Below are positions 5,348-22,009 of a stretch of DNA of 64,000 nt, piece after piece. Source of the stretch: Pseudophaeobacter flagellatus (GTDB taxonomy: Bacteria > Pseudomonadota > Alphaproteobacteria > Rhodobacterales > Rhodobacteraceae); assembly GCF_021228235.1 (NCBI RefSeq), contig NZ_JAJQRG010000005.1:248001-312000 (forward strand). The letters run 5' to 3'. Each line of letters opens with the position of its first letter. Positions within the stretch are counted from its first letter, which is position 1. The notes below the pieces were generated by a model that was not told the DNA's origin, made no database searches, and was given only the letters and a program-made list of their open reading frames with translations. Made by a program: the position numbers and the translations under genes.

Positions 5348-6136
5348 TTAAGCGGGGGATGTGCGGCGTAGCAGGTAGATATCCATGATCCAGCCGTGAT
5401 CGGCGCGGGCCTGGGCGCGGGTTTGGATGATCTGTTCGGCGACCTCAGCCAAGGGGCCAGAGAGGCTGATCTGGTTTTCCATGCCGGCATAGGCGGACCA
5501 CCAGATGTCCACCCCTGTGGGGTCGATGGCCTGAAACGAGCATTCCCCATCCAGCATGATCACCAGGGTATCGGCACTCTCAGGCCAGCCGTTCTCGCGC
5601 AGCTGTCGCCCGGTGGTCACGGTAAAGGGCGCGCCAATCTCGTTCAACGGGATGGCATGGGCGGCGGTCAGCGCCTGGATCGAGGTTACGCCGGGAATGA
5701 CCTTTAGCGTAATATCCTGCGTGGCCTTCAGGCGCTCGGCGATGCGCATGGTGCTGTCATATAGCGATGGATCCCCCCAGACCAGAAAGCCAACCCTGAC
5801 CTTGCCGCCGGGGCAGTGGTCGCGGATGGTTTTGATCCAGACCTCGGCAATGGCATCGTGCCAGTGATCCACACGGGCGGTATAGTCCCGGATCGCAGGG
5901 TCGCGCACCGGCAGGGAAAATTCAACAATGCGCGGGCCGGGGGGCTGGATCACCTGGGCACAGATCTGCTGGCGCAGCCCGGCGAGGTCGTCTTTGCCCG
6001 CGCCCTTGTGCGGGATCAGGATCAGATCGCAGGCATTGAGCGCGGCGACCGCTTGCAGGGTCAGATGCTGCGGGTTGCCGGTGCCAATGCCAATGAGCGA
6101 GAGCTCAATCATGGCGGCCGTGCTGTCATTGTTCAT
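5348..6136 (-). CDS. cobF: Precorrin-6A synthase (deacetylating) CobF
   Basis: 262 residues. CobF methylates C-1 of the corrin ring with SAM and expels acetate, converting precorrin-5 to precorrin-6A in the aerobic pathway. The N-terminal LIGIGTGNPQ is the SAM-binding loop of tetrapyrrole methylases. IPHKGAGKDDL and LVWGDPSLYDST are typical of CobF, not of its paralogues. ATG 6136 is chosen because GCAGGAG lies about ten bases upstream; ATG at 6112 is an alternative. It is the last gene of the riboswitch-headed cbtB-cbtA-His-rich-cobF run. Confidence 0.93.
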   Translation of the reverse strand: MNNDSTAAMIELSLIGIGTGNPQHLTLQAVAALNACDLILIPHKGAGKDDLAGLRQQICAQVIQPPGPRIVEFSLPVRDPAIRDYTARVDHWHDAIAEVWIKTIRDHCPGGKVRVGFLVWGDPSLYDSTMRIAERLKATQDITLKVIPGVTSIQALTAAHAIPLNEIGAPFTVTTGRQLRENGWPESADTLVIMLDGECSFQAIDPTGVDIWWSAYAGMENQISLSGPLAEVAEQIIQTRAQARADHGWIMDIYLLRRTSPA

Positions 6137-6839: not shown

Positions 6840-7529
6840 TTACGCTGCGGCGGTGCGCGGCGCTTCCGATTGCCAGAAATGGCCGGCAAAGGTGCCAAGC
6901 AGAACCCAGGCGGCCATGCCAACGCCAAGGGCGCGTGCGGCAAACAGCGCGCCGATCTCGGTTGGAACCGGACCGGTAAAGCTATCTGGCTCCGGGGCGC
7001 CAATCAGATGCGGCAGCAGCAGCAGCGCCACGGCAATGGCATAAGAGACCAGATTGCCGCCAAAGGCGATGAGCCACATGGCAATGCCGGCAGCAGCCAC
7101 GGTTGCTGTCCACCAGATCTGGCGGTCAAAGACATCGGCAGCAGCTACGCCGGGCACTTCTGGTGCCAGGGTCAGCGCCGGCGCCAGATGGAAGGTGACA
7201 AAACCTGCCAGCCCCCAGAGGATGCCTGCCCGTGCGGTGACAACATGGCCCTTGCTCTCGGCAAGTGACATCATGGCAACCATGACCAGCGCATAGCCAG
7301 TGTAGGTCAGCATGGTGAAAATGATGCTCAACCCGTTGCGCATGACGTCAAAGCCGGGCAGATCCGGATGCGCCGAAACCGCGGCACCGCCAAAATGCAC
7401 CAGCTCGCCGCTCTCATAGAGTTCGGCATGCAAAAGAACAGGCTGCACAAAAAGAAGCTGCAGCAGAGCGGTTAACAACCCTGCTGCAGCACCAGCGAAC
7501 AACGCGCTGGTCAAGATACGGTTCATCAT
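6840..7529 (-). CDS. cbtA: Cobalt transporter subunit CbtA
   Basis: 229 residues with about five hydrophobic segments: N-terminal ILTSALFAGAAAGLLTALLQ, two central helices, and two at the C-terminus. The conserved pattern QPVLLHAELYE follows the first helix, and a His residue lies in FVTFHLAPAL. CbtA is a predicted cobalt permease subunit found under B12 riboswitches in proteobacteria. The tandem ATGs at 7529/7526 follow the cbtB stop by four bases, consistent with translational coupling. Some starts within the longer open frame up to 7583 would overlap cbtB and are not needed. Confidence 0.9.
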   Translation of the reverse strand: MMNRILTSALFAGAAAGLLTALLQLLFVQPVLLHAELYESGELVHFGGAAVSAHPDLPGFDVMRNGLSIIFTMLTYTGYALVMVAMMSLAESKGHVVTARAGILWGLAGFVTFHLAPALTLAPEVPGVAAADVFDRQIWWTATVAAAGIAMWLIAFGGNLVSYAIAVALLLLPHLIGAPEPDSFTGPVPTEIGALFAARALGVGMAAWVLLGTFAGHFWQSEAPRTAAA

Positions 7530-7533
7530 CTGC

Positions 7534-7704
7534 TTAGTGGCAGGGGAAGCCGGTTGCGTGACGGACGTCATGGGCCGCGTCATGCAGGGCAGAGGCCTGT
7601 ACGTGACCGGTCAGGGTGACAATACCCAGGCCAAGGATCACGGCAAACAGAGCTGGTGCAAAACCAGTGCCTGCAGCGGATTTGTTCAGTGTCTTTGTTG
7701 TCAT
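7534..7704 (-). CDS. cbtB: Cobalt transporter subunit CbtB
   Basis: A 56-residue protein with one hydrophobic helix (PALFAVILGLGIVTLTGHV) and a His-rich C-terminal tail (HDAAHDVRHATGFPCH), the hallmark of CbtB, the small partner of CbtA. It is the first gene after the riboswitch. ATG 7704 is favoured over 7707 because GGAG lies six bases upstream of it. The His-rich tail probably presents cobalt to the permease. Confidence 0.9.
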   Translation of the reverse strand: MTTKTLNKSAAGTGFAPALFAVILGLGIVTLTGHVQASALHDAAHDVRHATGFPCH

Positions 7705-7716
7705 CATTTTCTCCAC

Positions 7717-7734
7717 GTCGTCACACCCGACGAC
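7717..7734 (-). promoter_or_regulatory. Hairpin just upstream of the cbtB ribosome binding site
   Basis: Read on the minus strand, GTCGTC and GACGAC form a six-base-pair stem round a GGGTGT loop. It ends three bases before the GGAG of cbtB and lies between the riboswitch aptamer and the start codon. It could be part of the expression platform controlling access to the ribosome binding site. Confidence 0.45.
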
Positions 7735-7751
7735 AAAAGTTTCAGTCCAGT

Positions 7752-7944
7752 ACATGGCCGGTCTCCTGACTCGCAGGTCACAGCGGTTTTTCCCCTTCCC
7801 GATGGCCAGATTGGCCCCAGTGGATATGAAAAACCACTCGCTGCTCACAGTCGCGGGGGCGGTTGAGGGCGTGGCGCCGCGATTTGGTCCGCCATTCCTC
7901 ATTCCCGTTTCAGCCCTGATGCTTTGCACCGTTGGACACCATGT
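7752..7944 (-). promoter_or_regulatory. Cobalamin riboswitch (upstream of cbtB)
   Basis: On the minus strand the conserved cobalamin aptamer blocks appear in order. A 5' ACATGG pairs with CCATGT at the 3' end to form P1. Then come GGGCTGAAACGGGAAT, the core CCCGCGACTGTGAGCAG, CCACTGGGGCC with GGGAAGG, and the closing GACCTGCGAGTCAGGAGACC. It precedes cbtB, so adenosylcobalamin is expected to shut down cobalt import and the downstream His-rich protein and cobF. The rest of the leader back to 8054 shows no gene. Confidence 0.93.
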
Positions 7945-8054
7945 TCATTTGTTGTGCCCTTTGTCATACTGCCCGGTCAAGTTGGAAACCGTCCCGCTTG
8001 GACAAAGATGCGATTTTTTCGGTGGGCAGGGCGATTTTGACCCTGTTGTAGGAT

Positions 8055-8390
8055 CTAGTCCAGATTTGCCGGGATTCGCGCGATGGCCTTCATCCGCAGG
8101 GTTCCGAGCGGACGGGCATCTGCCAGGGTGCCATCGGAGCTTTCGTTAAAGAGCCGCAAAAAGGTGAGGATGTCCGGCAGGTCCGCTGCGGTGATCTCGC
8201 CAAAGAGATAGGCCGTCTTGCCGCTTTGCCGCACTGCAAGGGTCTGCGGGCGAGTGCAGCCGGACATGCAGTCCACCTCTTGCACCCGCGCCGAGATCCC
8301 GACCTGTATCAGGGCCTCTGTCAGACGGCCGGGCAGGGCCAGATCGGCGCTCTTGCAGCTCCGGCAGAGGGTCAGGGTTGGCCGCGACAC
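8055..8390 (-). CDS. DUF1636 protein (thioredoxin-like, Fe-S type), B12 locus
   Basis: 111 residues. Cys pairs LCRSC near the N-terminus and DCMSGC at about residue 40 match DUF1636, a family resembling thioredoxin-like ferredoxins and frequent in cobalamin gene clusters. It starts with GTG at 8390, four bases after the cobA stop and behind GGGAGG. It is the last gene of the long cob run; a paralogue (21220-21639) is the first gene of the same run. The biochemical function is not established; help with metal or electron delivery to corrin synthesis is inference. Confidence 0.8.
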   Translation of the reverse strand: MSRPTLTLCRSCKSADLALPGRLTEALIQVGISARVQEVDCMSGCTRPQTLAVRQSGKTAYLFGEITAADLPDILTFLRLFNESSDGTLADARPLGTLRMKAIARIPANLD

Positions 8391-8394
8391 CGGT

Positions 8395-9132
8395 TCAGCC
8401 TCCCGGGGTCAGATCGGTATCGGCCAGCGGGCCGTAGAGGATCAGCACCGGCGCAGTGGTCTCCATCGCACGCAGAACCTGTGGCAATTCACCGACCGTA
8501 TGGCAGCTGAGCTGCTGGTCGGGGGTGGAGACCCCCAGGGCCACCAGCGCATGGGTTTCAGGTGGCAGACCTGCTTCGACCAGCTTTTCCGCCAGGGCAG
8601 CAAAGGTGCGTTTGCCCATATAGACAACCGTGGTGGCATCCGGGTCGGCCAGAGCCGCCATATTCAGGCTATCTGGCAGGCCACCGGTGACGTCGTGACC
8701 GGTGATGAATTGCATACGGCGCGCCGTCAGTCGCCGGGTCAGCGGGATATTGGCCGCAGCCGCCGCGGCTGAGGCTGCGGTGACACCGGGGATGATCTCA
8801 AACGGGATGCCCGCAGCACGCAGGGCGAGGATCTCTTCTTCAAGACGGCCAAAGACACCACTGTCACCTGATTTCAACCGGACAACCTTGAGGCCGCTTT
8901 TGGCATAGTCCACCAGCAGCTGGCTGACGTGGTCCTGTTTGGGTGAGGGCCGCCCGGCGCGTTTACCAACACCCACCAGATCGGCCTCGGCGCTGGCATG
9001 GGTCAGGATTGGCCCTGAGGAGAGATCGTCAAACAGCACCGCATCTGCCGCTTCCAGCCGTTTCACCGCCTTGACGGTCAGCAGCTCAGGGTCACCGGGG
9101 CCGGAGGAGACAAAACTGACAAAGCCGCTCAT
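8395..9132 (-). CDS. cobA: Uroporphyrinogen-III C-methyltransferase CobA
   Basis: 245 residues. CobA uses two SAM to methylate uroporphyrinogen III at C-2 and C-7, giving precorrin-2, the branch point to B12 and siroheme. The SAM loop SSGPGDPEL is at residues 9-17, GKRAG at 56-60 and the signature RLKSGDSGVFGR at 85-96. It is a single-domain SUMT without CysG dehydrogenase domains, so it is the B12-type enzyme. The ATGA overlap with the cobB stop implies coupled translation. Confidence 0.95.
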   Translation of the reverse strand: MSGFVSFVSSGPGDPELLTVKAVKRLEAADAVLFDDLSSGPILTHASAEADLVGVGKRAGRPSPKQDHVSQLLVDYAKSGLKVVRLKSGDSGVFGRLEEEILALRAAGIPFEIIPGVTAASAAAAAANIPLTRRLTARRMQFITGHDVTGGLPDSLNMAALADPDATTVVYMGKRTFAALAEKLVEAGLPPETHALVALGVSTPDQQLSCHTVGELPQVLRAMETTAPVLILYGPLADTDLTPGG

Positions 9133-10445
9133 GCGCCCTCTCCGGTGATCAGATGGAAAAAGGTGCCGGTGACATGGCCCTTGATGGATCCGGTTTCGGG
9201 GACCGGATTGCCATCGGCGTCCATGACATGGGCCAGTGGGGCGTCAGGTTCATCCAGTATGGTGGAATAGTGGAACTCATGCCCACGCAGGGGCGCAGCT
9301 GTCGCAAAGCCCGGCATCGGCGCCAGCAGTTCGGCGCGGCGATAGCCCAAATGGAATTTGCGTTTCTCATAGGATGTGACCAGCCCCAGCAGCCCGGCCA
9401 TCTGATGGCGGTTGCCCTCCTTGTCGATCAGCGCCGCGCCGAGCGCCATGTAACCACCACATTCGCCATGCACTGGCTTGGTCTCGGCATGTTTGCGCAG
9501 GCCCGCACGGAAGGTCTCGGCGGCGGCCAAAGTGCCGCCGTGCAGTTCCGGGTAGCCTCCGGGCAGCCAGACCAGATCGGCGTCTTGGGCCGGGGCCTCG
9601 TCTGCGAGGGGGGAGAACGGCAGAATTTCAGCGCCAGCGGCGCGCCAGCCGGTCAGAAGGTGCGGATAGGTAAAGGAAAACGCCGCATCCCGTGCCAGCG
9701 CGATGCGCTGCGCCGGGGGCTTTGGCAGCGTGTTGGGGGCTGGGGCGGCTGCGCCCATGGCTGCCGATTTGAGCGCCTCAAGATCCACATGTTCGCGCAG
9801 GAAATTGGCATAGCCTGCGATGGCGGCTTCCAGATCGGGATGCTCCACCGCCTGAATCAGGCCCAGGTGGCGTTCGGGCAGGGCAAGATCGCCGCGACGG
9901 GGCAGCGACCCCAAAACTTTGACGCCAGCCCGTTCCATACCCAGTCGGGTCAGGCGTTCGTGGCGCGGGCTGGCGACCCGGTTCAGGATTACGCCCGCAA
10001 AGGGCACCTCTGGGTCGTAGGACTTGAACCCCAGCGCGGTAGCGGCGGCAGACTGCGCCTGACCGCCCACATCAATCACCAGCACCACTGGCCAGCCCAT
10101 GCGCTTGGCGGTTTCGGCAGAAGAGCCAAAGCCGGTTTGCCCACGGGTGGCAACACCGTCAAACAGCCCCATCGAGCCTTCGCCGATGCATATATCAGCC
10201 CCTGTTGCCTGTCCGGCAACCGCATCCAGCAGCCCCGCGTCCATCGCCCAGGTATCCAGATTGAAGCTGGGGCGTTTGGCAGCGGCAAAGTGAAAGGCCG
10301 GGTCGATATAATCGGGGCCGCTTTTGAAAGGCTGAACCGCCAGGCCGTCTTCGGCAAGGGCCCGCAGCAGGCCCAGCATCACCGTAGTCTTGCCGGTGCC
10401 AGAGGCCGGGGCGGAGATCATCAAACCTTTGGGGAAATCAGTCAT
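9129..10445 (-). CDS. cobB: Cobyrinate (hydrogenobyrinate) a,c-diamide synthase CobB
   Basis: 438 residues. It amidates the a and c carboxylates using glutamine and ATP; in the aerobic pathway the substrate is hydrogenobyrinate, just before cobalt insertion by CobNST. The N-terminal P-loop [11 protein letters not shown] spans residues 11-21, followed by KSGPDYIDP. The C-terminal class I glutaminase domain has the nucleophile motif HGECGGYM, and HLITGEG lies at the end. ATG 10445 overlaps the cobM stop by eight bases. Confidence 0.94.
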
Positions 10446-11232
10446 CACCTTCGCTCCAGTTGGCCCATTGGCTATCGGCGCTTTGTGGCCGGTAGCGGCG
10501 GTCATAATCCTGCGCGTAAAGGCAGCTTTCGTCAAAACCTTCATTCCCAAGCGCCGGTCCGACCAGGATCAGCGCGGTGCGCCCGCGCATCCCGCCGGTA
10601 GCCTCTTCCAGGGTGCCAAGCGTCGCCTTGACCACCTTTTGATCAGGCCAGGTGGCGCGCCAGACCACGGCAACCGGGCACTTGGCGCCATAGCTTGGGG
10701 TGAGCCGGGCGATCACATCCTCCAGCACATGTACCGAGAGGTGAATGGCCAGGGTCGCACCGGTGCGGGCAAAATTCTCCAGCGTTTCGCCTTCGGGCAT
10801 GGCAGAGGCCTTGCCAGAGGTGCGCGTCAGCACCAGCGATTGCGCCACACCCGGCAGCGTCAGCTCTGCACCCAGGGTGGCGGCGGCGGCGGCGAAGGCC
10901 GGTACGCCGGGGGTAATGTCATAGGCGATGTCCAGCGCGCGCAACCGGCGCAGTTGTTCGCCAAGGGCCGACCAGACTGACAGATCGCCGGAATGCAGTC
11001 GCGCGACATCTTGCCCGGCGGCATCGGCGGCCTGGATATGGGTGATGATCTCATCCAGTGACAGGGCGGCGGTATTGACCACCTTGGCGTCTTTGGGGCA
11101 GTGCTGCAGCAGGGCCTCGGGCACCAGAGAGCCCGCATAGAGACAGACCGGGCAGGCGGCGATCAAGTCGCGCCCGCGCAGGGTGATAAGATCGGCAGCG
11201 CCGGGACCGGCGCCGATGAAGTGAACGGTCAT
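10438..11232 (-). CDS. cobM: Precorrin-4 C11-methyltransferase CobM
   Basis: 264 residues, close to the usual length. It transfers a SAM methyl group to C-11 of precorrin-4, giving precorrin-5, the substrate of CobF. Motifs are the N-terminal [10 protein letters not shown] loop, [25 protein letters not shown] (the CobM/CbiF signature) and [10 protein letters not shown]. It overlaps cobE by ATGA. Confidence 0.94.
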
Positions 11233-11609
11233 GGCTCAACTCTTTCTGCAATGGCCGCGGTGGCGAACCCATCCGCGGTGATAACTCGGGGGGCGATCAG
11301 GCGGGCCTGTACGCCCTGCGGCTGGCCCTTGCGGGCGGCAACCAGGGCGCAGGCCTCGGCAAGAGAGCCGGTGCCAAATCGGGTGAGGATACGCGACGAC
11401 GACGTGAGGGTCGGCGTGCCGGTAATTTCGTCTTCGGTCAGGGCAATCAGCGGCACCGACAGCGCCTGCGCCAGATCCACAAGGGCGGATTGGCTTGCCT
11501 TGGTTGTGATCGAGGCCAGCGCATCGGGCTGCGCGCCGGTCAGGGCCAGGGCGGCGCGCAGATCGGCCAATGTTGCGGTGCTGCGAAACCCAAATCCGGC
11601 GATCATCAT
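11229..11609 (-). CDS. cobE: CobE (CbiG C-terminal-like) cobalamin biosynthesis protein
   Basis: 126 residues. It matches CobE, equivalent to the C-terminal domain of Cbi[20 protein letters not shown] at the N-terminus and SVAEA-like GSLAEACAL with the preceding FGTGS. CobE is needed for the aerobic pathway, but its exact chemical role is not firmly settled. ATG 11609 overlaps the cobL stop; a second ATG follows directly at 11606. Confidence 0.88.
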
Positions 11610-12817
11610 CGGGTGACGCTCCACTGGATGACCGGGCGGGCGCGCTGCCAGTCACGCATGGACCCTAAAGGCCCAGCTTCGGCGATTTCCGCCTTCAACA
11701 GATGGCCGCCGTGCTGGGCGTGGGCCTGCATCAGCAGGGTTTCTGTTTCCAGGGTGACGCCATTGGCCACCAGCCGGGTGCCGGGTGGCAGGATTTGCCA
11801 CAGGTGATCGAGCAGCTCTGGCGAGCCACCCCCGCCTAGAAAGACGCAGTCGGGCAGGTCATGCCCGGTCAGTACCGCTGGCGCCCTGCCCAGAACCCCG
11901 GCCATGCGGTGGCTCAGGCCAAAGCGGGCGGCATTGGCACGGATATTGTCCAGACGCTCGGCGCGGGGTTCAAAGCTGATGGCGCGGGCTCCGGCGGCCG
12001 CCAGGCACCATTCCACCGACACAGAGCCAGAGCCGCCGCCAATATCCCAAAGCAGTTCGTGCGGGCGCGGCGCCAGGGCCGACAGGGTCAGCGCACGAAT
12101 GGGGCGCTTGGTGATCTGCCCATCGCTGAGGAAATGATCGTCCGGCAGGCCTGAGGCGCGCGGCAGGCCTTTGGAGCCGCTTGGGGTTATGGCAACTGCG
12201 ACAGGGGCCTGTACCCGTGTCAGATCAAAGGTATCAGCGGTGCAGTTGCGGATGCGTTCCCGCGGTCCGCCAAGCCGTTCCAGCACCCGCAATTGCGCAG
12301 TCCCAAACCCCTGGGTCACCAGAAACCGCGCCAGTTCTGCCGGGGCCGCGCCATCGCGCAGGGTGCATATCAGTTGTTGGCCGGGGGCCAGCAGCGGCAC
12401 CAGCTGTTCATAGGGGGCGGCGTGTAGCCCGATGCACAGACTGTCTTCCAACTTCCAGTGTAGACGGTTGGCCGCCAGAGAAAACACCGAAGGTGCCGGG
12501 TGTGATGCCCATTCTTCAGGTTCCAGATCGCAGGCGAGCGAGCCGCCGGCACCATGCCAGAACGGATCCCCTGAAGCCAAAACCACCACCGGGCGGCCGC
12601 GCAGCGCCAGCACTGGTGCGGTTGAAAAAGGCACCGGCCAGGGCAGCCCCTTGGCCCCGGCCTGTACCAGATCAAGATGACGTGGCCCGCCAAAGATGGT
12701 TTCCGCATCCGCCAGCGCTTTGCGGCTTGCCTCTGACAGGCCGGCCGGTCCATCTTCGCCCAGACCAATCACCGTGAGCCAGGGTTGGCCTGCGCTTTGC
12801 AAGACAGGATCAGACAT
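11606..12817 (-). CDS. cobL: Precorrin-6Y C5,15-methyltransferase (decarboxylating) CobL
   Basis: 403 residues with two methyltransferase domains: an N-terminal CbiE-like one (VIGLGEDGPAGLS; LASGDPFWHGAG) and a C-terminal CbiT-like one with the SAM loop WDIGGGSGSVSVEW. It methylates C-5 and C-15 and decarboxylates the C-12 acetate to give precorrin-8. Its ATG (12815-12817) overlaps the ATG of the divergent cobK (12816-12818) by two bases. No ribosome binding site is evident, and no promoter space exists outside cobK, so it is probably read from the upstream cobJ transcript. Confidence 0.93.
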   Translation of the reverse strand: MSDPVLQSAGQPWLTVIGLGEDGPAGLSEASRKALADAETIFGGPRHLDLVQAGAKGLPWPVPFSTAPVLALRGRPVVVLASGDPFWHGAGGSLACDLEPEEWASHPAPSVFSLAANRLHWKLEDSLCIGLHAAPYEQLVPLLAPGQQLICTLRDGAAPAELARFLVTQGFGTAQLRVLERLGGPRERIRNCTADTFDLTRVQAPVAVAITPSGSKGLPRASGLPDDHFLSDGQITKRPIRALTLSALAPRPHELLWDIGGGSGSVSVEWCLAAAGARAISFEPRAERLDNIRANAARFGLSHRMAGVLGRAPAVLTGHDLPDCVFLGGGGSPELLDHLWQILPPGTRLVANGVTLETETLLMQAHAQHGGHLLKAEIAEAGPLGSMRDWQRARPVIQWSVTR

Positions 12818-13559
12818 GACACGCACACTTGTTCTGGGCGGCACCACCGAGGCCTCTACGCTGGCTCTCGCCCTGGCCGACAGCGGCGCCGATGCGGTGT
12901 TTTCCTATGCCGGGCGCACCGCCAAGCCGGTGCCGCAGCCCTTGCCGATGCGGGTGGGGGGCTTTGGCGGTGTGGCCGGCTTGCTGGCCTATCTTCGGGA
13001 AAATGACATCAGCCATGTGGTGGATGCCACCCATCCCTTTGCTACCCAGATGAGCCGCAATGCGCTGCAGGCCTGCGCCCAGGCGGGGGTTGCGATCTGC
13101 GCGTTTGAACGCCCGGCCTGGCAGGCCAGGGTAGGCGATAAATGGCGTCATGTGCCAGATATGGCTGGCGCAGTTGCCGCTTTGCCCGAACAGGCCGCGC
13201 GGGTGTTTCTGGCCATTGGCAAGCAGAATTTGGCAGTCTTCGCGGCAAAGCCGCAGCATCACTATCTGCTGCGTCTGGTCGATGCACCGGCTGCGGATCT
13301 GCCGTTGCCTGACTGCACGGTGGAACTGGCGCGTGGACCGTTTGATCCGGCGGGCGATCTGGCGCTTCTGCGGCGTCATCGCATCACTCATATTGTGGCC
13401 AAGAACGCAGGTGGCGCTGGCGCAGCAGCCAAACTCACTGCCGCGCGTGGGCTTGGCCTGCCGATCGTGATGATCGACAGACCCGGGCTGCCAGCCCGGC
13501 GTATGCTGGGCACTCTGGCAGAGGTTTTGGCCTGGCTGTCTCATGTGTCAGACGCGTAG
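12816..13559 (+). CDS. cobK: Precorrin-6A reductase CobK
   Basis: 247 residues. It reduces precorrin-6A to precorrin-6B with NADPH, the step between CobF and CobL. The N-terminus TLVLGGTTEAST is the conserved nucleotide-binding loop, so the start must be at or before ATG 12816; ACAGGA lies about seven bases upstream. Other markers are VVDATHPFATQMS, FLAIGKQN and the NAGG motif near the C-terminus. It is the only gene of the main cob run on the plus strand: its start overlaps that of cobL, and its last 19 bases overlap cobJ. Its promoter must lie within cobL. Confidence 0.93.
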   Translation: MTRTLVLGGTTEASTLALALADSGADAVFSYAGRTAKPVPQPLPMRVGGFGGVAGLLAYLRENDISHVVDATHPFATQMSRNALQACAQAGVAICAFERPAWQARVGDKWRHVPDMAGAVAALPEQAARVFLAIGKQNLAVFAAKPQHHYLLRLVDAPAADLPLPDCTVELARGPFDPAGDLALLRRHRITHIVAKNAGGAGAAAKLTAARGLGLPIVMIDRPGLPARRMLGTLAEVLAWLSHVSDA

Positions 13560-14302
13560 CGCGGCGTGTAGACATGCGGGCCGACACGGCGGGTGTCCTT
13601 GTTGCCGACGATGACCACGGTGCGCATATCCGCCATCTCTGGCCGCGCCTCGGTCAGGGTAACGGTGGTGATTTCCTCCGTCGGTTTGGACACATCTCGG
13701 GCAAAGGAGATCAATGTCTCGCCACCGCAGGCCTCGCGTAGGATCTCTAGTGCCCGGCCAAACTGATGTGGGCGCGATTTGGAGCGCGGATTGTAAAATC
13801 CCATGGCAAAGCCCGCTTCGCCGGCAAGGCGCAGGCGCTTTTCGATCAGGCCCCAGGGTTTTAGATTGTCGCTAAGGTTGATAGCGGCAAAGTCATGCCC
13901 CATCGGCGCGCCAATCCGGGCCGAGGCCGCCAGCATCGCGGTGATGCCCGGCAGCACCTGAATATCGAGATCCAGCCAATCGGGGCGATTGGCCAGGTCC
14001 AGCGCTTCGAACAGGGCCGAGGCCATGGCAAAAACGCCGGGATCGCCAGAGGAAACAACCGCGACACGCTTGCCTTCAGCTGCCATTTCCAGCGCATGGG
14101 TGGCGCGCTCCACCTCGACCCGGTTATCGGTGGCATGCAGGGTAAGGCCAGGGCGTTCGGGAATGCGTTTCACATAGGGGATATAGCCCACCACATCGGT
14201 GGCCTCGGTGATCACCTGCTGGACCTGGGCTGTCACCATGGTTTCGTCGCCGGGGCCAAGGCCGAGGATCTTTACCCAGCCTTTTGTCGCTGCATCTGTC
14301 AT
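13541..14302 (-). CDS. cobJ: Precorrin-3B C17-methyltransferase CobJ
   Basis: 253 residues. CobJ contracts the ring and methylates C-17, turning precorrin-3B into precorrin-4. Motifs are ILGLGPGDETMVT, VGYIPYVKRIP, VSSGDPGVFAMAS, VLPGITAMLAAS and MGFYNPRSKSRPHQ, all typical of CobJ. It overlaps cobI by ATGA upstream and the convergent end of cobK by 19 bases downstream. Confidence 0.95.
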   Translation of the reverse strand: MTDAATKGWVKILGLGPGDETMVTAQVQQVITEATDVVGYIPYVKRIPERPGLTLHATDNRVEVERATHALEMAAEGKRVAVVSSGDPGVFAMASALFEALDLANRPDWLDLDIQVLPGITAMLAASARIGAPMGHDFAAINLSDNLKPWGLIEKRLRLAGEAGFAMGFYNPRSKSRPHQFGRALEILREACGGETLISFARDVSKPTEEITTVTLTEARPEMADMRTVVIVGNKDTRRVGPHVYTPRYASDT

Positions 14303-15036
14303 GGTCTGCGTCCCTGTCCATGCACCAGAACGATCGAAAAATAAGGCACATCGCCAGAGAGCTCGGAGAGTTTTTGCACGCTTTGGCTTGGCATGGTGCC
14401 GCGTTCCACCAGCCAGGCATCCTGCAGTTTGTCGGCGCGCTCCAGGGCGCGGCGTAGTTTCGGCAGGTTGCGGCCAATCTTCATCACCACCAGCGCGTCG
14501 GTTTCCCGGATGCGGCGGGTCAGCTCATCCTCGCTTAGGGTGGCCATGGCCACGGTCAGCACATCATCGCCCCAGGTGATGGGCTGACCCGTGGCTGTCC
14601 AGCAGCCGGACATGCCGGTGATGCCGGGAATGATCTCTTGCGCGATACGACCCTGCAGCCGGGTATAAAGATGCATGTAAGAGCCGTAAAAGAAGGGGTC
14701 CCCTTCGCAGAGCACCACCACATCTTCGCCGTCGCTCTTGGCAATACCGGCCAGGGTTTCGGCCCATTGATCATAGAAGGCAGCAAGGATGCGATTATAT
14801 TCGGGGTCAGAGAAATGGATCTCGGTGGTGACCGGATATTCCATCGCGTGTTCGATCACCCCGGCGGGCAAAAGACCGTCTACCAGAGCGCGGGCCTGAC
14901 CTTTGCGGCCTTCCTTGCGGAAATAGGCCACATGTTTGGCACCCTGGATGGCACGCCAGGATTTGACGCTCATCAGGTCGGGGTCGCCAGGGCCAAGCCC
15001 GGCGCAGATCACTTTACCCGGTGTTACTGTTGGCAT
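14299..15036 (-). CDS. cobI: Precorrin-2 C20-methyltransferase CobI
   Basis: 245 residues. It methylates C-20 of precorrin-2 to give precorrin-3A. The SAM loop is CAGLGPGDPDLMSVK. The CobI signature AYFRKEGRKGQAR, VVLCEGDPFFYGSYMH and IIPGITGMSGCWT follow. ATG 15036 is favoured, with GGAAAG upstream; an in-frame GTG at 15042 overlaps the cobH stop and is a possible alternative. Confidence 0.95.
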   Translation of the reverse strand: MPTVTPGKVICAGLGPGDPDLMSVKSWRAIQGAKHVAYFRKEGRKGQARALVDGLLPAGVIEHAMEYPVTTEIHFSDPEYNRILAAFYDQWAETLAGIAKSDGEDVVVLCEGDPFFYGSYMHLYTRLQGRIAQEIIPGITGMSGCWTATGQPITWGDDVLTVAMATLSEDELTRRIRETDALVVMKIGRNLPKLRRALERADKLQDAWLVERGTMPSQSVQKLSELSGDVPYFSIVLVHGQGRRP

Positions 15037-15038
15037 GG

Positions 15039-15668
15039 TCACTCTTTCCAGCTGGCAAGCGCATTGACCGCTGCCACGGTGATGGCAGAGCCGCCCAGGC
15101 GGCCCTTTACGATCATCGAGGGCACCGGAAGATCCTGCATCAGGGCGTCTTTGGATTCCATCGCGCCGACAAAGCCAACCGGGCAGCCGATGATGGCGGC
15201 GGGGCGCGGGCAGGCGGGATCCTTCAGCATGTTGAGCAGGTGAAACAGGGCAGTGGGGGCATTGCCGATGGCGACGACGGCGCCGTCAAGATGCGGGCGC
15301 CAGAGCTCTAGCGCAGCGGCCGAGCGGGTATTGCCCATCTCTTTGGCCATCTGGGGCACACGTTCATCGCGCAGGGTGCAGATAACCGGGTTATTGGCGG
15401 CAAGGCGTGGGCGGGTGATGCCCTCGCTGACCATATAGGCATCACAGAGGATCGGCGCACCACCCGCCAGCGCGGCGCGGGCGGTTTGTGCCATTCCTGG
15501 GGAAAAATGCACGTGCTCCTCCAGGCCAACCATGCCTGCGGCATGGATCATGCGAACGGTGACGCTTTCTTCATCCTTGTTGAACCGGGCCAGATCGGCC
15601 TCGGCGCGGATGGTGGCAAAGCTCTCGGCATAGATGGCCGCGCCGTTGGTTTCATAGGTGTGGAGCAT
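15039..15668 (-). CDS. cobH: Precorrin-8X methylmutase CobH
   Basis: 209 residues, standard length. It moves the C-11 methyl to C-12, giving hydrogenobyrinate. The catalytic His is His42 in RMIHAAGMVG; ILCDAYMVSEGI, the APTALFHLL region and GCPVGFVGAMESK are conserved substrate-contact motifs. It starts one base after the cobG stop, behind GAGGGCAG. Confidence 0.96.
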   Translation of the reverse strand: MLHTYETNGAAIYAESFATIRAEADLARFNKDEESVTVRMIHAAGMVGLEEHVHFSPGMAQTARAALAGGAPILCDAYMVSEGITRPRLAANNPVICTLRDERVPQMAKEMGNTRSAAALELWRPHLDGAVVAIGNAPTALFHLLNMLKDPACPRPAAIIGCPVGFVGAMESKDALMQDLPVPSMIVKGRLGGSAITVAAVNALASWKE

Positions 15669-15669
15669 G

Positions 15670-16857
15670 TCAGCTGCCCTCTGTCAGGATTTGCGGCGCG
15701 GCGCGCAAGGCACCGGCCCTTAGGGAGTCTCTTAACGGGTGATCCCCGGCCTTGCCATGGTGGATCAGGGCAAATGTGTCGGGGGCGGTTGCGGTCAGCA
15801 CCAGCGGCGCCGGGCGGGGATGGGCACAGCCCTTGGCACAGCCCGAGACATGCAGCACTTGCCCCTCTGGTACAAAGGGGGCCAGATCGCGGGCCAGATC
15901 GCGGGTGGCCGAAAGCGCCTGCAGGCAACCGGGCGCACCGGTGCAGGCGCTCACCCGCAGGCGCGGATCGCGGGCGTCAAGGATCAGGCCGGGCAGGCGT
16001 GGGATTTCAATGTCGTGCCTGCCCTCGATAAGGAGCATGCGCCAAGGGGTCAGGCGCAGGGCGCCTTGCTCTGCCAGCGTTGCGAGGGCCTGAGCGGTGA
16101 TCTGGCCGAATTCAAGCCCGACCAATTGGCCAATGGCGCAGTTTCCGATCGTTGGCGATGGAGTGCTGGCGCTACGGGGCGTGATGTGTGACGCGGGTAG
16201 CCCGCGGCGCGCTATGAGCGGGTGCATTCTGCCGCGCCCCTCGGGCGCGCCGCCCTGTTGCAAGAACCAGCGCGCCAGATCAAGTGCTGCCTCGGCGGCA
16301 GTCTCGGCGGTAATCGATTGGCCACATTCTGCACCGTCAGCCAGGAGCAAAAGCTCGGCACCGCTGGTCTCAATTCGAATATCGCCGACGCAGTCGCGTA
16401 GTTGGGGGCTCTCCCCGGCATCGACCACGAAGCCGAATTTCCCGGGCAGCAAGAGATCCTCGGCATCGCGGAGCGCCTGTTCAAGCTGGGCGGCGATGCG
16501 GTGACTGATGTCCTCGGGCTTCCACAGGGGGGTCAACATCACGTTGCGCCGCGCCTCGGCAGCGCTGTCATGATCCACTAGGCCGAGGTCTTGCAGGGCG
16601 GCAATCAGGGCAGGATAGCTGTCGGCAGTGATGCCGCGCAGTTGCAGGTTGGCCCGTGCCGAGAGGTCGATCAGACCATTGCCAAAGCGTTCAGACAGCG
16701 TCGCAACTGCCGACGCCTGGTCTTGGCTCAGCTGTCCCAGTGGCGCGCGAATACGCACAACCAGCCCATCCCCCGACATCATCGGTCGCAGGGCGCCAGG
16801 GCACCAGCCATAGACCTTTGGGTCGGGGGAGGCAGCAGGGCCGGGGGCTTTGGTCAC
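15670..16857 (-). CDS. cobG: Precorrin-3B synthase CobG
   Basis: 395 residues. CobG is the oxygen-dependent monooxygenase making precorrin-3B and marks the aerobic pathway. It is related to nitrite/sulfite reductases. The C-terminal CTGAPGC and CAKGCAH motifs provide the four cysteines for the 4Fe-4S cluster. The chosen GTG at 16857 overlaps the cobN stop (GTGA); a longer open frame reaches 16905 inside cobN. No CobZ replacement is seen, so this strain uses the CobG route. Confidence 0.92.
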   Translation of the reverse strand: MTKAPGPAASPDPKVYGWCPGALRPMMSGDGLVVRIRAPLGQLSQDQASAVATLSERFGNGLIDLSARANLQLRGITADSYPALIAALQDLGLVDHDSAAEARRNVMLTPLWKPEDISHRIAAQLEQALRDAEDLLLPGKFGFVVDAGESPQLRDCVGDIRIETSGAELLLLADGAECGQSITAETAAEAALDLARWFLQQGGAPEGRGRMHPLIARRGLPASHITPRSASTPSPTIGNCAIGQLVGLEFGQITAQALATLAEQGALRLTPWRMLLIEGRHDIEIPRLPGLILDARDPRLRVSACTGAPGCLQALSATRDLARDLAPFVPEGQVLHVSGCAKGCAHPRPAPLVLTATAPDTFALIHHGKAGDHPLRDSLRAGALRAAPQILTEGS

Positions 16858-19800
16858 GCGGTGTCCTCCAGCAGGGCCATGATGGAATTGCGCCGCGTGG
16901 TCCACAGATCGGCCGCTGCCAGGGCGCGAAAGCGGTCGCGCATTGCCTCCAGGGCTTTGGGATTTTCCTGTTCGAGAAAGGCAACAAGATCTTCGCGCCC
17001 CAGGGTGGCCTCGAAGTAGAGATCAAACAGATGCGGCGGCACCACCTGGGCCAGATGGGCAAAGGCCGCCATATGATCCAGCGTGGCCGCAATCTCGGCC
17101 CCACCACGAAAGCCGTGTTGCATCATGGCGCTGGCCCAGTCCGGGTTGCTGGCGCGGGCGCGGGTGACGCGGGCAATCTCTTCGCCCAGGGAACGTGCCT
17201 GCGGACGGTCCGGCCGGGTGGCATCCAGATGATAAAGCGCAGGTGCCGGGGCGCCGATCCGGGCCATGGCAGCGGCAAAGCCTGCCTCATGGGCGGCGTA
17301 GTCTTCGGCGATCAACAGGTCCGTTTCGGGCAGATCCTGCAGGTGAACAAAGCTGTCGGCCCCCTTTAGGCGGGCCTCCAGGGCGCTGCGGGCCTCTGAT
17401 ATATCGCCCTGGGCGTCAATGGCATGTGACGAGGCGGTGATCCAGGCCTCGCCTGCTGCTGCGCGTGCGTCGTCACTGTAGCTGTCGATATGTGGCCCCA
17501 TGGACAGACCGTAGAGGCCCGGTTTGGGGCCAAAAACCCGTGGGCCCTGCACCAGATAGGGATTGTCGCTGGGGTCTTCGTCGCGCCCCGCCAGCGCACC
17601 AGCGGCGGCTTCGAACATTTGGGCCAGGCCGGGAAAGATATCGCGGAACAGACCTGATACCCGCAGGGTGACATCAATGCGGGGGCGTCCCAACATGGAG
17701 AGGGGCAGGACTTCAAAGCCGGACACTCGTTCCGAATTCTTATCCCATTTGGGGGCCAGCCCGGCCAGATGCAGCGCCATGGCAAATTCCTCGCCGGCGG
17801 TGCGCATGGTGGCAGAGCCCCAGAGATCAATCACCAGCCCCTGCGGCCAGTCGCCCTGGTCTTGCAGGTGGCGGCGCAGCAACTCTTCCGCCAGTTTGAC
17901 CCCCTGCGCCTGCGCCGCCCGTGACGGCACCGCGCGCGGGTCGGTGGTGAAGAGGTTGCGCCCGGTGGGCAGCACGTCCGACCGGCCGCGAAACGGAGAG
18001 CCAGAAGGGCCGGGAGGCACCAACTGCCCATTCAGCGCAGCGACCAGCCCAGCATGTTCTGCCGCGCCGCAATCGCCGGTGCCAAAGATATGCAACCCCT
18101 CGCCATACTGGCTTTCCTTGATGTCGCAGACAAAGGCATCGATCCGGGTGATGGCCTCTGCCGCAGAGGTCTCCGGGGTGAGGCCGAGATCTGCCTCGAC
18201 GCCGGTGCCCTGGGCCTCCGCGCGGATATCATCAAGCAGACGGTCGCGCCGCGCCGGGTCCAGCCCATCGGCGGTGGAATATTCATCCAGCAGGTTTTCC
18301 AGCCGTGCCATGCCCTCGGGCAGGGTGGTCTGGGCCAGGGGTGGCGGCACATGGCCTAGGGTTACGGCTCCAATGCGGCGCTTGGCCTGAGCGGCCTCGC
18401 CGGGGTCGTTCACGATAAAGGGATAGACAACGGGCAGCGCGCCGGTCAGCGCTTCGGGCCAGCAGGCCGCCGAGAGTGCAACGGATTTTCCGGGTAGCCA
18501 TTCGAGGGTGCCATGGGCACCGATATGGACCAGCACATCGCTGTGCTGGCGCAGCCAGAGATAAAAGGCGACATAGGCATGGCGCGGTGTGCGTTCCAGA
18601 GCATGGTAGTCGTCAACGCGGGTCTGCACCTCGCCACGTTCGGGCTGCAGGGCGATCAGCGCCTTGCCCGCCTGAAGTGCCTTGAAGTGAAACGCGCCAT
18701 CCTTGCAGTCGGGATCCTGCTGCGGCTGCCCCCAGGCGGCGGCCAGGTCCTGCTGTAGCACCTGCGGCAGGCTGGCCAGCGCGGCGGTATATTCTTGCAG
18801 CGAAAAGCGCAGAGCGGCGCTGTCCAGCCGCAGGCCAAGATTCCCCTGCGGCGCGGCGTCATAGCCCTGCCTGGCCAATTCTGCCAGGATTTCGTCACAG
18901 GAGGCCAGCGCATCCAGCCCCACCGCATGGGCCAGATTGTGGGCCTTGCCGGGATAGGTCGACAGGATGAGCGCCGGGCGCTTGGCCGTATTGGGCTGGG
19001 CTGCAAGGCGCAGCCAGCCTTCGACCCGGTCGACAACCGCCGCGATGCGATCGGCAACGGGGCGGTGGGCAAAGCGGGAATACTGAAGGTCCGGATCCTG
19101 CTTGCCGGGGGATTTGAAGCTGACAACCCCTGCCAGGATACGGCCGTCTACTTCGGGCAAAACCACATGCATCGCGAGATCCGCAGGCGAGAGCCCGCGC
19201 GCCGCTTCGGCCCAGTCTTTTTTGCGGGCGGTGGACAGAGCCACCTGAAACACCGGACAGCCGGTGGCATTCAGCGGCGAGGCGCTGCCATCACTGCCCT
19301 GGGCCGAAAAGGCGGTGGCGTTAACAATAGCGGCTGGCGTCAGCGACGGCAGGGTCTCGCGGAGCCAGGCGGCGGTCTGTGTGGATTTCAGGCTGGCGGC
19401 AAACACGCCGTAGGCGGCGTAGCCACGGGCGCGCAGTTCAGCAATCAACGCATCCACCGGGGCGGTATCGGCGGCAGTCAGATAAGAGCGGTAGAAACTG
19501 GCCAGAACCAAGGGTTTATCCTGCACATCGGGGGGCGAAATTACCCCCTGATCAGGATCATAGAAACCGTGCTGCGGCGTGGATTTCAGCCCCAAAACTG
19601 GCCCGGCATATAGCCCCGCCGCCAGCGAGAGCTGCGCCAACGCCGCCTGCGCCGCCACCGCGCCGCCCGCATCACAAAGCGCCTGCAGCCGCCGCAGGGT
19701 CGAGGCTGGTAGTGTCGACAGGGCGTCCAGCCGAGGGTCTTCACGGCCGTCGGCTGGCAGGATTGCCAGTGCGATGCCGCGGCGGCGGGCCAGATCCTGC

Positions 19801-20099
19801 AGGGTGGCCAGCCCATATGGCCAATAGCTTTCGCCGCCAATCAGCCGCACCAGCACTCCCTTGGCCCCGGCGAGTGTCTGTTCGGCATAGGTGTCGACCG
19901 ACAGCGGGTGTTTCAGCGCCACCAGATTGGCCAGCCGCAGGCTGGGCAGTGTGCCATCGGCACGATGCCAGCCTGCCGCAAAGGCCCCAAGGTCGCTGTC
20001 GGAAAAGGACAGTACCACCAGATCGGCAGGCGATTGCCCCAGATCCTGTGGCGTGTCGGTTTGATCCAACCCGTGGCTTTCACGAAAAACGACGTGCAT
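16854..20099 (-). CDS. cobN: Cobaltochelatase large subunit CobN
   Basis: 1081 residues. CobN is the large subunit of the ATP-dependent CobNST complex that inserts cobalt into hydrogenobyrinate a,c-diamide. The motif HIGAHGTLEWLPGKSVALS and the long conserved C-terminal half with RVSGLFRDIFPGLAQM are characteristic. It is shorter than the roughly 1270-residue enzymes of some alphaproteobacteria, mainly at the N-terminus. The AAA+ partners CobS and CobT are not in this window. It starts 89 bases after cobW, with a hairpin between them. Confidence 0.93.
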   Translation of the reverse strand: MHVVFRESHGLDQTDTPQDLGQSPADLVVLSFSDSDLGAFAAGWHRADGTLPSLRLANLVALKHPLSVDTYAEQTLAGAKGVLVRLIGGESYWPYGLATLQDLARRRGIALAILPADGREDPRLDALSTLPASTLRRLQALCDAGGAVAAQAALAQLSLAAGLYAGPVLGLKSTPQHGFYDPDQGVISPPDVQDKPLVLASFYRSYLTAADTAPVDALIAELRARGYAAYGVFAASLKSTQTAAWLRETLPSLTPAAIVNATAFSAQGSDGSASPLNATGCPVFQVALSTARKKDWAEAARGLSPADLAMHVVLPEVDGRILAGVVSFKSPGKQDPDLQYSRFAHRPVADRIAAVVDRVEGWLRLAAQPNTAKRPALILSTYPGKAHNLAHAVGLDALASCDEILAELARQGYDAAPQGNLGLRLDSAALRFSLQEYTAALASLPQVLQQDLAAAWGQPQQDPDCKDGAFHFKALQAGKALIALQPERGEVQTRVDDYHALERTPRHAYVAFYLWLRQHSDVLVHIGAHGTLEWLPGKSVALSAACWPEALTGALPVVYPFIVNDPGEAAQAKRRIGAVTLGHVPPPLAQTTLPEGMARLENLLDEYSTADGLDPARRDRLLDDIRAEAQGTGVEADLGLTPETSAAEAITRIDAFVCDIKESQYGEGLHIFGTGDCGAAEHAGLVAALNGQLVPPGPSGSPFRGRSDVLPTGRNLFTTDPRAVPSRAAQAQGVKLAEELLRRHLQDQGDWPQGLVIDLWGSATMRTAGEEFAMALHLAGLAPKWDKNSERVSGFEVLPLSMLGRPRIDVTLRVSGLFRDIFPGLAQMFEAAAGALAGRDEDPSDNPYLVQGPRVFGPKPGLYGLSMGPHIDSYSDDARAAAGEAWITASSHAIDAQGDISEARSALEARLKGADSFVHLQDLPETDLLIAEDYAAHEAGFAAAMARIGAPAPALYHLDATRPDRPQARSLGEEIARVTRARASNPDWASAMMQHGFRGGAEIAATLDHMAAFAHLAQVVPPHLFDLYFEATLGREDLVAFLEQENPKALEAMRDRFRALAAADLWTTRRNSIMALLEDTA

Positions 20100-20188: not shown

Positions 20189-21223
20189 CTAGGCGCCCAG
20201 GTCTGCCCGGATGGCGGCCCCGTCGATATTGTCATGTTCGGCAATAACGACCAACTGGGTGCGACGCGGTGCATCGCCCCAGGGCTGATCGTATTGTGCC
20301 CGCAGACGTTCGCCCACGGCCTGTACCAACATGCGCATTGGCTTGCCCTTTACTGCAACATAGCCTTTGACCCGCAGGATATTGCGAGTCCGGGCCAAGT
20401 TCACAATGGCATCTTGCAGCGCTTCCGGGTCAGATACTTCGCCCATTTCGACAACTATGCTTTCAAAATCGTCATGTTCGTGGTCGTGGTGACCATCGTG
20501 ATGGCTGGGACGTGCCTCCAGATCATCTTCGGCGGCTGCATTCAGCCCTAGAATGATGCGCGGATCAATCACCCCTTCGCTCATTGGGAGGATTGGCACC
20601 TGGCGCGGGGCTTCGGCCTCGATCACCTTGCGGGCTTGTTCCAGCCCGGCCTCGCCTGCCAGATCGGCTTTGGACAAGAGCACGATATCGGCGCAAGAGA
20701 TCTGATCCTCAAACACTTCCGACAGCGGCGTTTCGTGATCCAGGCTGTCGTCGGCAGCGCGCTGGGCCTCAACGGCGGCGAGATCGGGGGCAAACTGCCC
20801 TGCGGCCACGGCTTCGGCATCGGCCAGGGCAATGACGCCATCAACGGTGATGCGCGAGCGGATGGCCGGCCAGTCAAAGGCCTTGAGCAGCGGCTTGGGC
20901 AGGGCCAGGCCTGAGGTCTCGATCAGAATATGTTCGGGGGCCTGGGGCAGGGCCATCAGGGCCTCGATCGTGGGGATGAAATCATCCGCCACGGTGCAGC
21001 AGATGCAGCCGTTTGCCAGCTCCACAATGTTGTTTTCAGGACAGTTTTCATCGGCGCAGGATTTCAGGATGTCGCCATCGACGCCTGCGGTGCCAAATTC
21101 ATTGACCAGAACCGCCAGACGTTTGCCCTGTGGGTTTTGCATCAGGTGGCGGATCAGCGTGGTCTTGCCCGCGCCAAGGAAACCAGTGATGACAGTGACA
21201 GGAATTTTGTTGAGATCGCTCAT
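20189..21223 (-). CDS. cobW: CobW family GTPase (metallochaperone)
   Basis: 344 residues, G3E GTPase family. The Walker A GFLGAGKTT is at residues 14-22, the metal-binding NGCICC motif at 71-76 (C73, C75, C76), and a His/Asp-rich linker (SHHDGHHDHEHDD) precedes the C-terminal CobW domain. CobW is thought to deliver cobalt to the CobNST chelatase; it sits directly before cobN. Its ATG overlaps the stop of the DUF1636 gene (ATGA). Confidence 0.93.
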   Translation of the reverse strand: MSDLNKIPVTVITGFLGAGKTTLIRHLMQNPQGKRLAVLVNEFGTAGVDGDILKSCADENCPENNIVELANGCICCTVADDFIPTIEALMALPQAPEHILIETSGLALPKPLLKAFDWPAIRSRITVDGVIALADAEAVAAGQFAPDLAAVEAQRAADDSLDHETPLSEVFEDQISCADIVLLSKADLAGEAGLEQARKVIEAEAPRQVPILPMSEGVIDPRIILGLNAAAEDDLEARPSHHDGHHDHEHDDFESIVVEMGEVSDPEALQDAIVNLARTRNILRVKGYVAVKGKPMRMLVQAVGERLRAQYDQPWGDAPRRTQLVVIAEHDNIDGAAIRADLGA

Positions 21224-21639
21224 GTGGTTTCGTCCTTGCAGGGGAATGTGATTGGGGGAATGCGGGCAATGGATTGCTTGCGAAACACCTGCGGGCGTTC
21301 GCGCCAGGGTACCAGCCCATCGGTGGTGGCAGCATAGGCCGCAGCGCCCGCCAGAATGTCGTCCACATGGGCTTCGGGATCGAGATCTCCGTAGATGTAG
21401 CTCCAGCGGGTGTCGCCGCCGGTCAGCACCATGGCGCAGCCGCGTTTGCAGGCCGAGAGGCATTCAACACCGCGCACTGCGACCCCGGCTGGCAGTGTCG
21501 CCTCGGAGAGGGCCGACAGCAGCAGGGTACCGGGGCGTGTGGCCTCGGGGTCAACACCTTCGCGTTTGCAGGTTGTGCAGATCGTCAGGGTGACCTCTGC
21601 GGTATTTGGGGCGGGGCGTTCCGCCATATCGTCTGCCAT
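21220..21639 (-). CDS. DUF1636 protein, first gene of the main cob run
   Basis: 139 residues from the chosen ATG 21639; ATG 21651 and 21627 are alternatives and none has a clear ribosome binding site. Cys motifs CTTCKR and CLSACKRGC identify DUF1636. It follows the second cobalamin riboswitch and is translationally coupled to cobW. A paralogue ends the same run at 8055-8390. Compared with that copy it carries a Tyr/Trp-rich C-terminal half (TRWSYIYGDLDPE). Its function is unproven; a redox or metal-handling partner of CobW/CobN is plausible. Confidence 0.8.
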   Translation of the reverse strand: MADDMAERPAPNTAEVTLTICTTCKREGVDPEATRPGTLLLSALSEATLPAGVAVRGVECLSACKRGCAMVLTGGDTRWSYIYGDLDPEAHVDDILAGAAAYAATTDGLVPWRERPQVFRKQSIARIPPITFPCKDETT

Positions 21640-21747
21640 CAGCGCGCACATCCATTGTGGGGCCAAGGGGGCAGTGCCAGCAGGGGGAGGGCAGAGATGC
21701 GCTCCCACAACCAGTTGCGACACACCCCGTTCGCCCGTTGTCTCATG

Positions 21748-21945
21748 CGTTGGCAGGTCTCCCGGCTTGCGGATTTCAACGGGCCTGGGGCCTGTCTGCG
21801 GCTCTCTTGCCTTCCCGGCGCTGGGCACCAGTGGCATCAGAGACCTCTCCGGTCACGGTCGCGGGGGCGGCTGTGCTTGAGACAGATGCCAAGGGGCACC
21901 AACCTGTCACATTCCCTCTTCGCCTGCAATTTGCAGGAACCAACG
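21748..21945 (-). promoter_or_regulatory. Cobalamin riboswitch (upstream of DUF1636-cobW-cobN)
   Basis: On the minus strand P1 is CGTTGG (21945-21940) pairing with CCAACG (21753-21748). Between them lie the GAAGAGGGAA block, GGTGCC, the core CCCCCGCGACCGTGA, GATGCCACTG, GGGAAGGC and the closing GCCGGGAGACCTGCC, in aptamer order. It lies between cobO (divergent) and the DUF1636-cobW operon, and should repress the whole long cob run when cobalamin is plentiful. Confidence 0.94.
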
Positions 21946-22009
21946 AAAACCCCTTGCGCTATTGGGGGCTTCCTTGTCAAGACTTGCACAAACAGCAGGA
22001 GTGACCCCA

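Follow-up and report, generated by a model that had tools for sequence, protein, structure and literature searches.

A conserved reading frame antisense to cobK as a proposed translation bridge between cobJ and cobL

How can a tightly packed run of genes be expressed across a gene of opposite orientation? This question is raised by the cobalamin (cob) genes of Pseudophaeobacter flagellatus, which we analyzed in a stretch of 64,000 nucleotides (nt) (contig NZ_JAJQRG010000005.1, positions 248,001 to 312,000; hereafter the window, in whose own numbering all coordinates are given). The gene cobK (12816-13559, 247 amino acids (aa)), encoding precorrin-6A reductase, lies on the plus strand between cobJ (13541-14302) and cobL (11606-12817), both on the minus strand. 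A preliminary description of this DNA had pointed out that cobK is the only plus-strand gene in a minus-strand cob run, and open reading frames (ORFs) and family models agree with it. Its further statements on the layout are borne out as well: the cobK ATG (12816-12818) overlaps the cobL ATG (12817-12815) in a CATG common to the two head-to-head starts on both strands (12815-12818), the tail of cobK overlaps cobJ by 19 nt (13541-13559), and the overlapping starts leave no room for promoters between cobK and cobL. That description did not report our main result, a long antisense reading frame (aORF) opposite cobK, which extends from the stop of cobJ to the start of cobL and which we propose to be a bridge for ribosomes.

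A frame linking the cobJ stop with the cobL start

The aORF (13544-12810, minus strand, 244 aa) lies codon on codon with cobK. Its start ATG (13544-13542) overlaps the cobJ stop TGA (13543-13541) in an ATGA (13541-13544, minus strand), and at its other end the cobL start ATG (12817-12815) overlaps the end of the frame with its stop TGA (12812-12810) in ATGTCTGA (12810-12817, minus strand). In the window, the stretch that begins at the cobJ stop and ends 30 nt past the start of cobL contains a single in-register stop, at 12810. Stop-start overlaps of the ATGA or GTGA kind bring about translational coupling and normally link two useful genes. Judged by this geometry, both ends of the aORF are putative coupling junctions.

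Comparison across relatives was based on CobK matches in 253 of 292 genomes of an order sample, 136 of 385 of a class sample, and 109 of 398 of a phylum sample, the samples sharing some genomes. The loci comprised best hits, hand-picked genera and families, and 80 named loci (those ranking highest among 144 relatives in one scan); dropping identical cobK stretches and matches below 500 nt reduced the 321 loci to 280 distinct ones, and neighbors were named by their best BLAST match to window genes within 700 nt of cobK. The orientation cobL< cobK> cobJ<, called sandwiched here, was found in 201 of the 280 distinct cobK genes, and the shared CATG in 153 of 179 non-identical sandwiched loci. This comparison, which the preliminary description had proposed, indicates that the layout and the overlap of the starts are more than chance. 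The annotated records of Phaeobacter sp. G2 and Acidiphilium multivorum pACMV1 reveal the same layout and list no gene opposite cobK, though the gene table may be incomplete; in both, the antisense frame is open up to the cobL start, with CTGA at the cobJ stop in the former and ATGA in the latter. The aORF is likewise intact in the Rhodobacter capsulatus strain of locus L191.

The frame is conserved along its whole length. From the cobJ stop onward it is open in 195 of the 201 sandwiched loci; in a plain count, the stretch between the cobJ stop and the 5' end of cobK is free of stops in 190 loci, the cobJ stop itself having been counted in five others, which were taken as open and display a start codon 4 or 19 nt past that stop. 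The cobJ stop stands in the phase that permits NTGA in 192 of 201 loci, with an in-register start codon exactly on it in 164 and at most 12 nt downstream in 27 of the 28 remaining in-phase loci. Overlaps or gaps between cobJ and cobK take 31 distinct lengths, 25 of which keep the phase (p = 8.6e-8, lengths treated as independent); for the gap lengths alone, it is kept in 10 of 13. At the cobL end, a distance of 1, 5, or 8 nt separates the aORF stop from the closest in-frame candidate for the cobL start in 191 of 201 loci. Of the 153 loci with CATG, 131 have TGA, 9 have TAA, and 5 have TAG at position -6 of cobK, so that every kind of stop codon is used there, cobL residues 2-3 being variable. 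Where the starts of cobK and cobL lie apart, the aORF can extend past cobK and end on the cobL start, as it does in L039, L041, L042, L053, L122, L123, L150, and L155. By the strict rule, which demands an open frame coupled at both ends, 184 of the 201 loci qualify.

Depletion of stop-making codons in cobK

An antisense stop in the aORF register can arise only opposite a TTA, CTA, or TCA codon of cobK. When expected counts are derived from the remaining cob genes of each locus, the sandwiched cobK genes of 179 loci contain 33 such codons compared with 230 expected, and 29 of these 33 reside in two low-GC loci; without those two, four codons are observed and 209 expected (177 loci). The next lowest ratio of observed to expected counts (O/E) for any cobK codon with more than five expected is 0.56. 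Across all 201 sandwiched loci there are 40 stop-making codons (256 expected), and in the 183 loci with a GC content at third codon positions (GC3) above 0.65 there are 10 (177 expected). Outside the two low-GC loci, those seen in the aligned part of cobK fall at codons 243-245 of 247, before the aORF begins (in the window's own locus L001, L135, and L212), or else belong only to four loci with a broken frame (L262, L263, L276, and L097).

Could such openness be a mere by-product of GC-rich codon usage, with the conserved orientation as a frozen accident? A single genome is certainly no proof of selection, since in 464 kb of this genome a crude count gives 18 of 99 genes between 200 and 300 aa that are equally open on their antisense strand, and 45 of the 68 loci representing clusters have a cobI free of stop-making codons. 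However, the mean GC3 of cobK is ordinary (0.777, inside the range of 0.750-0.797 of the other cob genes), the nine control cob genes show an O/E of 0.83-1.39 for TTA, CTA, and TCA, and the other two antisense registers of cobK, with about 20 stops per 1000 codons, are not depleted. The depletion is mostly gone where cobK stands in other layouts, with 68 observed and 50 expected, 89 and 77, 5 and 6.2, 14 and 21, and 33 and 31, respectively; the counts of 89 and 77 come from 22 loci in which cobM follows cobK and the 700 nt before cobK hold no recognized cob gene. It persists after thinning to one locus per cluster of 70% CobK identity with GC3 above 0.65 (68 loci), where 8 codons compare with 56 expected, or 64 by a second expectation, and where five control genes range from 0.73 to 1.59 in O/E. 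In addition, the ends of the aORF track the cobJ stop and the cobL start, which codon usage does not account for. On the strength of the other cob genes, registers, codons, and cobK layouts we reject a codon-usage artefact, and we regard this explanation as extremely improbable. The orientation of cobK may itself be a frozen accident, which would leave the bridge unexplained. The comparison indicates that selection keeps the frame opposite sandwiched cobK open.

Peptide or passage

A frame maintained by selection might simply be a hidden gene that overlaps cobK and encodes a functional protein, and the 184 loci in which it is open and coupled fit that explanation. Four-fold degenerate sites of cobK set the first base of aORF codons, so slowed divergence would be expected there if the peptide mattered. 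Their divergence lies within the range of the neighboring genes in all six distance bins (for instance, 0.389 compared with 0.316-0.416 in one bin) and is reduced chiefly toward the ends of the gene. For pairs of equal CobK identity, the identity of the aORF products equals that of imaginary antisense frames of cobJ, cobI, and cobL in three of five bins, as imposed by CobK; a modest excess that would favor a hidden gene appears in the two closest bins and is taken up below. The aORF of the window matches no Pfam family at an E-value of 0.001, and across 19 aORF members only two weak matches emerged, each in a single member (E-values of 0.0014 and 0.0019, the latter below its cut-off). The best hit among solved structures had an E-value of 0.22, and AlphaFold gave a mean predicted local distance difference test score (pLDDT) of 30.7, meaning that the product is not predicted to fold. 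A protein-coding overlap is therefore unsupported by four-fold sites, antisense identity, Pfam, solved structures, and AlphaFold alike, and we consider it unlikely. Taken together, the sequences give no sign of strong selection on the aORF product.

We therefore favor, with a probability of about 0.82, the reading of the aORF as a product-free translation bridge that would carry ribosomes from cobJ to cobL. In this proposal the minus-strand run would be a single transcript whose genes are read in turn, the aORF being the missing link between cobJ and cobL. Ribosomes finishing cobJ would restart at the overlapping ATGA or GTGA, translate about 240 codons antisense to cobK, stop where cobL begins, and start again on that gene. 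Being translated would be the function, with a dispensable peptide as the result. Such a bridge could keep the cobJ-cobL transcript covered with ribosomes across the backwards gene and so guard it against Rho-dependent polarity, help the polymerase in head-on encounters with cobK transcription, hinder pairing with the cobK mRNA, and deliver ribosomes to cobL, which has no clear Shine-Dalgarno site in the window. Which of these four benefits weighs most is a matter of inference.

Several points weigh against the bridge, or at least temper it. It is built on sequence comparison, from which we infer both transcription and translation of the segment, and the sampled loci are related and were drawn non-randomly. 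Apart from the openness of antisense frames in single genomes already mentioned, the frame is broken in 6 of the 201 loci, with 13 stops in the low-GC L137, 16 in the low-GC L257, and one in L097, and, in loci of the gammaproteobacterial sample, one besides the cobJ stop in L262, five in L263, and one in L276; L137 even keeps the CATG overlap without an open aORF. In six further loci (L037, L052, L224, L293, L294, and L295) the frame is open and the rule for the cobL end is missed, a rule that is lenient in taking the nearest of several start candidates. Non-coding 3' gaps contain one stop in 355 triplets of the aORF register and 11 in 705 of the other registers, a difference that is only borderline (Fisher p = 0.052). 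Three co-directional cobL> cobK> loci are also low in stop-making codons (1 compared with 5.6 expected), co-directional controls being few. In the two closest bins, aORF identity (0.606 and 0.80) exceeds that of control antisense frames (0.50-0.55 and 0.63-0.71), an excess that may reflect faster change of CobK together with younger pairs, and the fold prediction relies on an alignment of 19 rows. Finally, crude gene callers confirmed no second sandwiched case in 464 kb of this genome: the first reported no sandwiched gene and missed cobK too, and the second returned four candidates including cobK, two of the others having 1 and 8 antisense stops.

The only other candidate of that scan without antisense stops was rejected as miscalled, since it lies opposite a gene for a phage lysozyme (PF00959; L342:12308-13033), part of a prophage probably located on the contig of the window. 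As regards the low-GC sandwiched loci L137, L257, and L051, all have kept the gene order, and the antisense frames of L137 and L257, being full of stops, look like natural losses of the bridge.

With somewhat less confidence than we place in the bridge, we think it probable that this full-length antisense frame is selected only for being translated and not for its product, forming a ribosome corridor along which an operon passes straight across an oppositely oriented gene. The choice among synonymous codons of cobK would then be governed by the opposite-strand frame, and similar corridors may exist in other GC-rich operons that contain backwards genes. If this is true, an operon can work through a gene pointing the other way, and a conserved function can consist in translation that yields no useful product. 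Whether an antisense stretch is genuinely read could then be judged simply, from a shortage of TTA, CTA, and TCA in the sense gene. Silent changes in one gene could also switch off genes on the opposite strand, a consequence for synonymous recoding and for strains that produce vitamin B12.

The cob run, its control, and known systems

The minus-strand run spans 21837 down to 8055 and comprises, in this order, DUF1636, CobW, CobN, cobG, cobH, cobI, cobJ, cobL, a CbiG-like gene, cobM, cobB, cobA, and a second DUF1636 gene. As the preliminary description had noted, most of these genes overlap or abut, with ATGA or GTGA junctions and gaps of one or a few nt along the packed chain. DUF1636 genes occupy both edges (21220-21837 at the head, overlapping a riboswitch, and 8055-8390 at the end). 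The cobW ORF (20189-21463; TIGR02475, 534.6 bits) starts further in than called, because the CobW match begins only at residue 85. It is followed by cobN, encoding a cobaltochelatase subunit (16854-20099; NF008973, 1637 bits), whose stop forms a GTGA inside the ORF of cobG (15670-16905), so that the two would share a GTGA junction if cobG, the start of which is uncertain, begins there. A gap of 1 nt separates cobG from cobH (15039-15668), which is joined by GTGA to cobI (14299-15042), and cobI by ATGA to cobJ (253 aa, precorrin-3B C17-methyltransferase; TIGR01466); cobG, cobH, and cobI were assigned by family models, as were cobM and cobB. Past cobL, a CbiE-CbiT fusion of 403 aa recognized by both domains, lie a gene for a CbiG C-terminal-like protein (11229-11624, start uncertain; PF01890), cobM (10438-11232), linked to it by ATGA, cobB (9129-10550, start uncertain), and the uroporphyrinogen-III C-methyltransferase gene cobA (8395-9132; TIGR01469, 234.8 bits, cut-off 185), which has an ATGA junction with cobB and lies a few nt from the second DUF1636 gene. 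All of these are on the minus strand. On the opposite strand, the identity of cobK is backed by NF005968 (cobalt-precorrin-6A reductase; 323.9 bits compared with a cut-off of 231) and PF02571 (235 bits).

A candidate ribosome-binding site of cobK, AGGA, lies within cobL codons (12806-12809, plus strand), and the upstream consensus of 142 aligned loci keeps its GG. The cobK promoter that had been placed inside cobL found no counterpart as a conserved element: this consensus contains no clear -35/-10, and elevated conservation is confined to the beginning of cobL (0.358 over its first 25 codons). Further in-frame starts of cobL are present, such as a GTG inside cobK; its position in relatives favors the start given here. 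A sigma-70 scan of the window gave one site, at 5858 and far from cobK, which is little informative given that shuffles lead one to expect 3.6. Any minus-strand promoter between cobJ and cobL would need to sit within the cobK coding region.

The head of the run carries a cobalamin riboswitch (21735-21959, minus strand; RF00174, 96 bits), and there is none between cobJ and cobL in the window. An Rfam scan of the loci around cobK yielded no match in 19 of 19 relatives' loci, which fits control of cobL to cobA by B12 from upstream. A second cobalamin riboswitch (7739-7958, minus strand) lies past the end of the run and precedes genes of the cobalt transporter, CbtB (7534-7929) and CbtA (6840-7583).

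The simplest explanation of the kept-open aORF is a transcript that joins cobJ to cobL and on which the segment between them is translated. Operon continuity across cobK had been inferred in the preliminary description; it gains strong indirect support from a frame that stays open all the way between the cobJ stop and the start of cobL, suggesting that the transcript spans cobK. Such a transcript would also belong to a classical non-contiguous operon, in which it would cross cobK untranslated and the two RNAs would regulate each other through pairing, RNase III, and polymerase collision; the opposite gene inside the run, the missing room for an intergenic promoter, and the lack of a riboswitch between cobJ and cobL all agree with it. 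It offers, however, no reason why TTA, CTA, and TCA should have been removed from cobK or why starts and stops should overlap at both ends, and we judge it to be even less probable than a hidden gene. Mutual regulation on top of the bridge could still occur.

Some further observations concern the occurrence of cobK. In a second layout, represented by L128, L149, L304, L306, and similar loci, cobK again points backwards but is followed by cobM and preceded by a gene whose best BLAST match is cobA-like; stop-making codons are not depleted there, as the counts of 89 and 77 given above show. Relatives of cobK were seen in 261 plasmid records, 140 of Rhizobium and 45 of Pseudosulfitobacter by the first word of their titles, the latter mostly of about 211 kb among the rows shown. 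A record titled Nocardioides marinus DP1N28-1 (JAHVJD010000007.1, 221543 bases), connected with loci L212 and L090, holds a Rhodobacteraceae-type cob cluster and looks mislabelled or contaminated.

In the open-licence literature of PubMed Central (PMC), we found neither the antisense frame of cobK and its conservation nor an earlier description of a frame selected only for translation. The direction of cobK in Ensifer and Pseudomonas denitrificans is probably on record in the cob papers of 1990. For Ensifer adhaerens and Pseudomonas denitrificans SC510, overlaps of the neighboring cobH, cobI, cobJ, cobK, and cobL have been described (PMC4070679); they resemble those of the window, and the text on these genes makes no mention of an antisense frame. 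Another paper deals, in the part concerned, with methylation in M. tuberculosis and is unrelated to the frame (PMC7591249).

The junctions at both ends of the aORF are of the same kind as ordinary ATGA or GTGA coupling, which also occurs elsewhere in the cob run, but one partner here apparently serves just to carry ribosomes. Bacterial genes that overlap in antisense, as treated in a review, have been argued for through a functional product (PMC7457138). The aORF is like them a long frame fully opposite a known gene, and differs in being conserved as a frame whose sequence is under no clear separate constraint. How translation of an antisense stretch could physically aid the operon transcript past cobK is suggested by the work of Hoffmann (2019, cited in PMC7457138), according to which a polymerase trailed by ribosomes resumes after head-on collisions; that work used reporter constructs and simulation, whereas the aORF is a natural, conserved element.

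The closest known system is the non-contiguous operon menE-menC-MW1733-ytkD-MW1731 of S. aureus (Saenz-Lahoya 2019), the internal stretch of which is described as untranslated and as pairing with the opposite mRNA (PMC7154746). The cob run is similar in that an opposite-strand gene, cobK, is interspersed between cobJ and cobL and that the other genes apparently form one transcript, and to this extent the likeness drawn in the preliminary description stands. It does not extend to the stretch opposite the interspersed gene, which bears the signature of translation in the cob run, being a frame apparently maintained without stops by selection, with a coupling junction at either end. If the bridge is real, it would qualify the idea that the internal regions of non-contiguous operons are untranslated.
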